A stretch of 64,000 nt of DNA from Purpureocillium takamizusanense (lineage: Eukaryota; Ascomycota; Sordariomycetes; Hypocreales; Ophiocordycipitaceae): NCBI RefSeq assembly GCF_022605165.1, contig NC_063081.1, forward strand, positions 248,001 to 312,000, written 5' to 3'. Below the pieces are notes generated by a model. The model was not told where the DNA came from, searched no databases, and saw only the letters and a list, made by a program, of their open reading frames with translations. Positions within the stretch are counted from its first letter, which is position 1. Every line of letters starts with the position of its first letter. A program made the position numbers and the translations under genes. This document shows positions 4,876 to 61,305 of this stretch, piece by piece.

Positions 4876-4919
4876 GGGGGGATGGGATGGGATGGGACGG
4901 GATGGGATGGGATGGGATA
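4876..4919 (+). repeat. (GGGAT)n pentanucleotide array
   Basis: About eight GGGAT units, one changed to GGGAC, preceded by a run of Gs. On the plus strand this gives at least eight G-triplets at 2-nt spacing, a regular potential G-quadruplex. It is non-coding. Confidence 0.9.
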
Positions 4920-38470: not shown

Positions 38471-38478
38471 TATAAAAG
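38471..38478 (+). promoter_or_regulatory. TATA box of the secreted repeat-protein gene
   Basis: A canonical TATAAAAG lies 209 bp upstream of the ATG at 38687. It would allow a leader of roughly 170-180 nt. Strong TATA boxes are not obvious at the housekeeping genes of this window, so regulated expression is likely (inference). Confidence 0.5.
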
Positions 38479-38686: not shown

Positions 38687-39781
38687 ATGAAGACTGCAGC
38701 GGGACTCGTCTTTGCCCTCGCTGGCATAGCCAGCGCGGTGCCTCGACCTACACACACTGAATCCACCTGCCTCGATGAGTCCGTCTGCATCGACGGCATG
38801 AGCGAGTGCGGCGTGGTCTGGGGCGGGTACGCTCTCTTTCGCCCTCTCCTTTTCTCTCCCCCTGTGATTCGACTTGAATCGATGAATGAGCACTCTATTG
38901 ACAATTCGTTCGCAGGTGCTACAACCCGTGCTCCCAGCCGTCTCCGACTCCCGCCCCGTGCCCCGCCACGTCTTCCGACAAGTCGACGATCACGGCTCCT
39001 CCGGTGACGCCAACGACCGCCCCTGAGGATGACTGCCACACGCGCATCATCTGCATTGACGCCATCAACGAGTGCGGCATCCGCTATGGCGGGTAAGTCT
39101 AGAACCCCGTTCGTTCCGCTGCCGAGGCTCGCAGGAAACAGGAGCGCTGACACTTTCTGGACTGGAACGCGCAGCTGCATCCCCGACTGCAAGCCCTGGG
39201 CGCTCAGCACGCCTCCCTGCCCGAGCTCGACGTCGACGTCCAAGAGTGTGGCGTCCGATGAGGGGTACATGACCGCGTGGAAGCGCCAAGAAGACGGCAA
39301 GATGACGGCCTGGAAGCTCGACGACGGCTACATGACCGCTTGGAAGGACGACGACGGCTTCATGACCGCTTGGAAGTCTGACGACGGCTTCATGACGGCC
39401 TGGAAGTCTGACGACGGCTACATGACCGCCTGGAAGCGAGACGAGCAGAACACGACGCCGGCGTACAAGTCCGGCTTCATGACTGCCTGGAAGAGCGACG
39501 ACGGCAAGATGACTGCCTGGAAGGAAGACGATGGCAAGATGACCGCCTGGAAGGACAGCGATGGCAAGATGACTGCCTGGAAGGACAGTGACGGTAAGAT
39601 GACCATGTGGAAGGAGAACGATGGCAAGATGACTGCCTGGAAGGAGAGCGACGGCAAGATGACTGCGTGGAAGGACAATGACGGTAAAATGACGGCTTGG
39701 AAGGTCGACGACGGCAAAATGACTGCCTGGAAGGACGAGTCTGGGTTCATGACCGCCTGGGCTCCTCAGCCGACGCAGTAG
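38687..39781 (+). CDS. Secreted protein: two six-cysteine modules plus sixteen MTAWK repeats
   Basis: Three exons (38687-38826, 38916-39092, 39175-39781) give 307 residues. A signal peptide covers about 1-17 (MKTAAGLVFALAGIASA). Two modules follow with identical spacing C-x5-C-x6-C-x6-C-x3-C-x9-C: Cys28, 34, 41, 48, 52, 62 and Cys87, 93, 100, 107, 111, 121. Each is cut by a phase-2 intron in the Gly just before its fourth Cys. A Pro/Thr-rich linker joins them. From about residue 135 to the end run 16 copies of a mostly ten-residue unit, consensus DG(K/Y/F)MTAWK plus two mostly acidic or polar residues. It is interrupted once by an NTT-containing spacer. Two Lys-Arg pairs lie inside the array. 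I know no named family; wall-associated protein, effector or peptide precursor are all possible. Confidence 0.85.
39256..39770 (+). repeat. 30-bp coding minisatellite (MTAWK array)
   Basis: Sixteen tandem units, mostly 30 bp, coding the decapeptide DGKMTAWKDS and variants. The GACGGC and ATGAC(T/C)GC(C/T)TGGAAG parts are strongly conserved with many synonymous changes. Copies 1-7 carry mainly Y or F before Met, copies 8-15 carry K. Confidence 0.92.

Positions 39782-61252: not shown

Positions 61253-61305
<53 letters not shown>

Follow-up and report, generated by a model that had tools for sequence, protein, structure and literature searches.

Our analysis demonstrates that a gene of the insect-parasitic fungus Purpureocillium takamizusanense encodes a small, probably secreted protein whose C-terminal half is an array of nearly identical decapeptide units, and that the repeated peptide is under clear selection. 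The gene lies in a stretch of 64,000 nucleotides (contig NC_063081.1, positions 248,001 to 312,000 of the forward strand; assembly GCF_022605165.1), here called the window, to which all coordinates refer. From the sequences we establish the anatomy of the gene, the selection on the peptide, the existence of homologous tails in which the number of units changes, and the conservation of the ends of these tails. A preliminary description of this DNA, made from its letters alone, had reported a 16-copy array, exactly two Lys-Arg (KR) sites in the tail, synonymous codon differences between units, and apparent selection on the peptide itself; each of these points was borne out, and the array was placed in a three-exon gene. 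The present work adds the cysteine modules that precede the array, the family to which they belong, homologous tails that differ in their number of units, a decayed 17th unit, the nearly fixed C terminus, and a dibasic pair that follows unit 1.

The decapeptide array and selection on its peptide

Among the 16 intact MT(A/M)W units, 14 carry an exact MTAWK, one carries MTMWK, and the last carries MTAWA. Units are spaced 10 residues apart, with two exceptions: the step from unit 1 to unit 2 is 11 residues, and the one following the decayed unit is 9. The tail contains one Trp per ten residues. The array has the highest TRF score in the window (368, the top of 21 entries). The repeated motif is roughly [D/E]-D-G-x-M-T-(A/I)-W-K.

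When the eight-codon core was compared among the 16 units by the Nei-Gojobori method, the proportions of synonymous (pS) and nonsynonymous (pN) differences were 0.546 and 0.131, respectively, a ratio of 0.24 (0.13 to 0.35 by bootstrap over units). Restricted to the MTAWK codons of units 1 to 15, the comparison gave a pS of 0.550 versus a pN of 0.024 (ratio, 0.04), a value that rests on Thr and Ala because Met and Trp have single codons and the last Lys, where present, is always AAG. Thr is encoded by ACC, ACT, and ACG in 7, 6, and 3 units, and Ala by GCC, GCT, and GCG in 10, 3, and 2 units, with one ATG at this position. The low pN/pS among units indicates that the peptide itself is selected, and the high synonymous divergence makes recent expansion an unlikely cause of its uniformity. 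We do not claim concerted evolution of the units; a test for homogenization in P. takamizusanense and P. lavendulum was weak, as the difference between units within and between species (0.14 residues in ten) was reached by 106 of 2000 permutations.

The preliminary description knew of no described family with this unit, and our searches agree. In Pfam, no family passed its cut-off for the window protein. At an E value of ≤10, a setting at which the HMMER filters drop most weak matches, four candidates (CTD, RHS_repeat, DUF7110, and Phage_Y01A) were obtained, all below their cut-offs. Sequences of solved structures gave only weak, low-complexity matches; the best (E value, 0.005), beta-lactamase inhibitory protein II from the PDB, aligns short D-G-K and A-W words and was set aside. 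A full-text literature search, with most subscription journals outside its reach, found no description of the repeat unit and no report on small secreted tandem-repeat effectors of Ophiocordyceps, and it returned only unrelated papers for MTAWK (plants of Mizoram) and APQPTQ.

Relatives of the tail and of the cysteine-rich head

An MTxW tail was present in 5 of 70 collected database proteins, among the matches listed in protein searches that restricted candidates by length. One of these proteins (P0001, from P. lavendulum) is 72% identical over 99% of the query, has two cysteine modules followed by the same kind of array, and is apparently the ortholog of the window protein. Its tail has 15 intact units and a decayed one, and it carries extra residues N-terminal to the signal-like stretch. 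Because it aligns without gaps across both splice junctions of the window gene, it supports these junctions. Its database name is "PQ loop repeat family protein"; as no PQ-loop match was found at an E value of ≤1, the name looks wrong. The other tails are shorter: 9 units counting a decayed one in P0068, a partial sequence whose reading frame seems to run through intron 2; 6 units, mostly 17 residues apart, in P0066 (Ophiocordyceps australis); 5 units in P0069 (Ophiocordyceps sinensis); and 3 units in the fragment P0070.

The C terminus MTAWAPQPTQ is identical in five of the six tails, including that of the window protein, and O. australis has MTIWDAPKPTN. In the window protein, P0001, and P0068, the decayed unit stands after a KR pair and before SGFMTAW. 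The numbers of units before and after it are 6 and 10 in the window protein, 3 and 12 in P0001, and 3 and 5 in P0068, and thus units have been gained or lost on both sides. The older units contain core variants (MVAL, MTPW, MTAL, and MTIW). Among the matches listed, the tail has so far appeared only in Ophiocordycipitaceae and in samples without an organism label. Related fungi that keep the unit and vary its copy number point to a repeat family that has no name.

The head of the window protein consists of two six-cysteine modules with the pattern C-x(3-9)-C-x6-C-x6-C-x3-C-x(8-12)-C and with D, N, G, and YGG in their usual places, except that S and W replace N and Y in module 1. When the 70 database proteins and the window protein were examined by this pattern, 63 of the 71 contained such modules, 130 in all and one to five per protein; the spacing 5,6,6,3,10 (C-x5-C-x6-C-x6-C-x3-C-x10-C) was the most common (66 of 130). 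A profile built from four sequences retrieved 67 proteins at an E value of ≤0.01 among the best 7998 candidates, those sharing the most words. Their named hosts are mostly Sordariomycetes; Dactylellina and Hortaea are among the exceptions. Judged by these comparisons, the head modules are part of a broad, unnamed family of fungal proteins that are probably secreted. Three of 10 proteins scanned narrowly passed the 24.5-bit cut-off of Toxin_30 (PF08117, Ptu family), namely, P0006 (25.3), P0009 (28.1), and P0010 (24.9), with best stretches that span about half of the profile; the window protein had no Toxin_30 match in the Pfam scan. In the window gene, each module is interrupted by a phase-2 intron at the same place, the second Gly codon of (W/Y)GGC. 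Duplication of an exon of phase 2-2 leaves the reading frame intact, and the existence of relatives that have as many as five modules may be due to this. Six relatives (P0016, P0017, P0025, P0039, P0049, and P0061) end in YGG and look like gene models truncated at that exon border.

Two further members of the head family differ in what accompanies the modules. In P0020 (321 amino acids), a single KR separates each of the five modules from the next, as EKR in three of the four cases. P0020 may thus be a precursor from which Kex2 releases cystine-rich peptides, and this arrangement suggests that such processing may also operate elsewhere in the head family. P0058 (Trichoderma velutinum) ends in a low-complexity tail of another kind, with many S/T-P repeats, and repeat tails behind this head may therefore have multiple origins. 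When the P. takamizusanense genome was searched for another copy of either head or tail, only the gene's own exons were matched, among them the three matches to a head-family protein.

Possible roles of the tail

We tentatively favor a reading, to which we would give a little less than an even chance, in which the gene product is a secreted two-part protein with a disulfide-rich head and a multivalent extracellular tail, freed by Kex2, that displays the selected Trp-bearing motif. The protein would enter the secretory pathway, and Kex2 would cleave after the dibasic pair of unit 1; a cut at this point would part head from tail. Outside the cell, the free tail may work through its many copies of the Trp motif, either by avid binding to a surface or partner (its own wall, insect cuticle, or a host protein) or by self-assembly, and gain or loss of units would tune its length or avidity. 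In all six arrays, unit 1 is followed by a dibasic pair, whereas only 7 of 44 later nonterminal units are. The Fisher value of 1e-4 overstates the strength of this rule, which was formulated post hoc on six related sequences.

In the form found in Purpureocillium, the ten-residue units might stack as an extended single-layer beta meander with 8-residue strands and 2-residue D-G turns. The AlphaFold model of the P. lavendulum tail, of low to middling confidence, is a beta meander with D-G turns. Like the free-standing beta-sheets of the CPAP G-box and OspA, this modeled array is an antiparallel meander without a second layer; aligned identity to them is 10 to 17%, with no sign of common descent. 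Foldseek found nothing at an E value of ≤0.001 in the PDB and a viral library, the top viral entry being a MORN-repeat protein (E value, 0.0047). A bolder version of the reading, which we regard as a long shot, would make the tail a new secreted fungal module of Ophiocordycipitaceae: a Kex2-freed, free-standing single-layer beta-ribbon of near-identical decapeptide hairpins with Trp on both faces that gains and loses units and either forms extracellular assemblies or covers the surfaces of the host.

The main rival to a Kex2-separated multivalent tail is a multicopy peptide precursor similar to Kex2-processed repeat proteins (KEPs), in which each unit or its MTAW(K) would be the active peptide, freed at dibasic sites and, by another protease, at single lysines. 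One kind of precursor is unlikely: in UstYa-type (dikaritin) precursors of ribosomally synthesized and post-translationally modified peptides, the core repeats are each ended by KR, and a UstYa gene lies close to the precursor gene. In the window protein, KR occurs on only 2 of 16 intact units, and none of the at least 35 matches to PF11807 (UstYa, DUF3328) listed for the genome lies in the window; the nearest of those listed ends at C14:44641, some 203 kb beyond the edge of the window. The objection that the preliminary description raised on these two grounds thus holds. Precursors of the KEP type (Rep1 of Ustilago maydis and the alpha-pheromone and ustiloxin precursors) resemble the window protein in their tandem short units, in dibasic pairs at the unit boundary, and in probable secretion, and the alpha-pheromone precursor with its KR/RR sites serves as a comparison (PMC10057649). 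The criteria of a KEP survey are a signal peptide, at least four fragments at KR/RR (or KK), and three or more similar repeats with Kex2 sites between them (PMC6339444). Cleavage of the window protein at KR/RR would give three fragments, with no KK, against these four (PMC6339444), and its two KR sites, rather than separating the repeats, divide the tail into stretches of 1, 5, and 11 units if the decayed unit is included. Its N terminus looks by eye like a typical signal peptide. P0001 and the partial P0068 would give 4 fragments each, O. australis 3, and O. sinensis and P0070 one each; in the part tested, O. sinensis has just one KK and no KR/RR. The window protein further differs from KEPs in the absence of a dibasic site from most of its units, in its cysteine-rich head, and in having no UstYa gene nearby. 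The six tails together contain 13 dibasic pairs, every one of which is located behind the MTxW core or an equivalent of it, 11 of them immediately and the other 2 with one or two residues in between; this position is partly dictated by the composition of the unit. Kex1 trimming would leave every Kex2 fragment but the last ending in MTAW. These features, like the purifying selection on near-identical units, the putative signal peptide, and the KR sites between the modules of P0020, speak for a precursor; the core variants of the older units are unlike a single fixed bioactive core, and on balance we consider a precursor somewhat unlikely.

The preliminary description also offered two binding functions, a wall- or glucan-binding repeat and a calcium-binding array, and neither gained support from the profiles. 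A wall- or chitin-binding protein, whose cysteine modules and Trp-bearing hairpins would bind polysaccharide, seems doubtful to us. It would suit the single Trp per ten residues, which by strand register would alternate between the faces of the modeled sheet, and the database names of the head relatives P0015 and P0028, "CBM1 domain-containing"; however, no CBM1, LysM, or choline/glucan-binding profile is among the Pfam matches of the window protein at an E value of ≤10, and P0015 has no Pfam match at all. Calcium binding by D-x-D-G loops is very improbable: of the 16 intact units of the window protein, 4 contain D-x-D-G and 3 contain E-x-D-G, but the acidic positions are not kept in relatives (KSG, VDG, DTG, DNG, and DEDR), and EF-hand, dockerin, and RTX profiles are likewise absent from those matches.

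Coordinates, neighboring genes, and significance

The coordinates of the gene and its parts are collected in Table 1. None of the three proteins returned by an initial protein search was labeled as encoded by the window itself, and the product may therefore be unannotated or modeled differently.

Table 1. Features of the repeat-tailed protein gene in the window
Feature	Positions	Strand	Remarks
Gene of repeat-tailed, putatively secreted protein	38687..39781	+	three exons, 307 amino acids
Exons	38687-38826, 38916-39092, 39175-39781	+	GT-AG introns
TATA-like box TATAAAA, upstream	38471..38477	+	candidate, read in the sequence
Putative signal peptide, residues 1-17	38687..38737	+	by eye; cleavage expected after ASA
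Cysteine module 1 (C28-C62)	38768..38961	+	six cysteines, split by intron 1
Intron 1	38827..38915	+	89 bp, phase 2, inside second Gly codon of WGGC
Cysteine module 2 (C87-C121)	39034..39220	+	six cysteines, split by intron 2
Intron 2	39093..39174	+	82 bp, phase 2, equivalent place, second Gly codon of YGGC
Decapeptide array, 16 MT(A/M)W units and one decayed	39257..39760	+	residues 134-301
Lys-Arg after unit 1	39281..39286	+	
Lys-Arg before decayed unit	39434..39439	+	also precedes it in P0001 and P0068
Decayed 17th unit DEQNTTPAYK	39440..39469	+	DEQNMTPAYK in P0068, DDDKISPAYK in P0001
Last unit and C terminus MTAWAPQPTQ	39749..39778	+	APQPTQ, then stop

After removal of overlaps, the window contains 42 open reading frames of at least 170 amino acids; 30 were scanned against Pfam, 18 had matches, and 13 were above the curated cut-off. 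The families matched include 2Fe-2S (presumably of the succinate dehydrogenase type), ALG6/8, SPT2, NUFIP1, EMC3, MMS19, ATP11, S-adenosylhomocysteine hydrolase, eIF3h, and mitochondrial carrier, and matches to PP2C, BRO1, and acidic ribosomal protein were slightly under their cut-offs. Elsewhere in the window, GGGAT is repeated 8 times in tandem (4879-4918), and a run of 50 G (61255-61304), unusual for a genome, may be an assembly artifact or a true homopolymer.

A survey that requires a dibasic site between repeats would miss the window protein, which raises the possibility that similar secreted repeat proteins are overlooked. Should the tail prove to be a genuine extracellular module, a group of insect-parasitic fungi would gain a repeat family that no Pfam entry matches, and the natural series of 3 to 17 units would allow tests of copy number against function. 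With its near-perfect repeats, D-G turns, and almost fixed C terminus, the tail would then also provide a simple natural model for free-standing beta-sheets.
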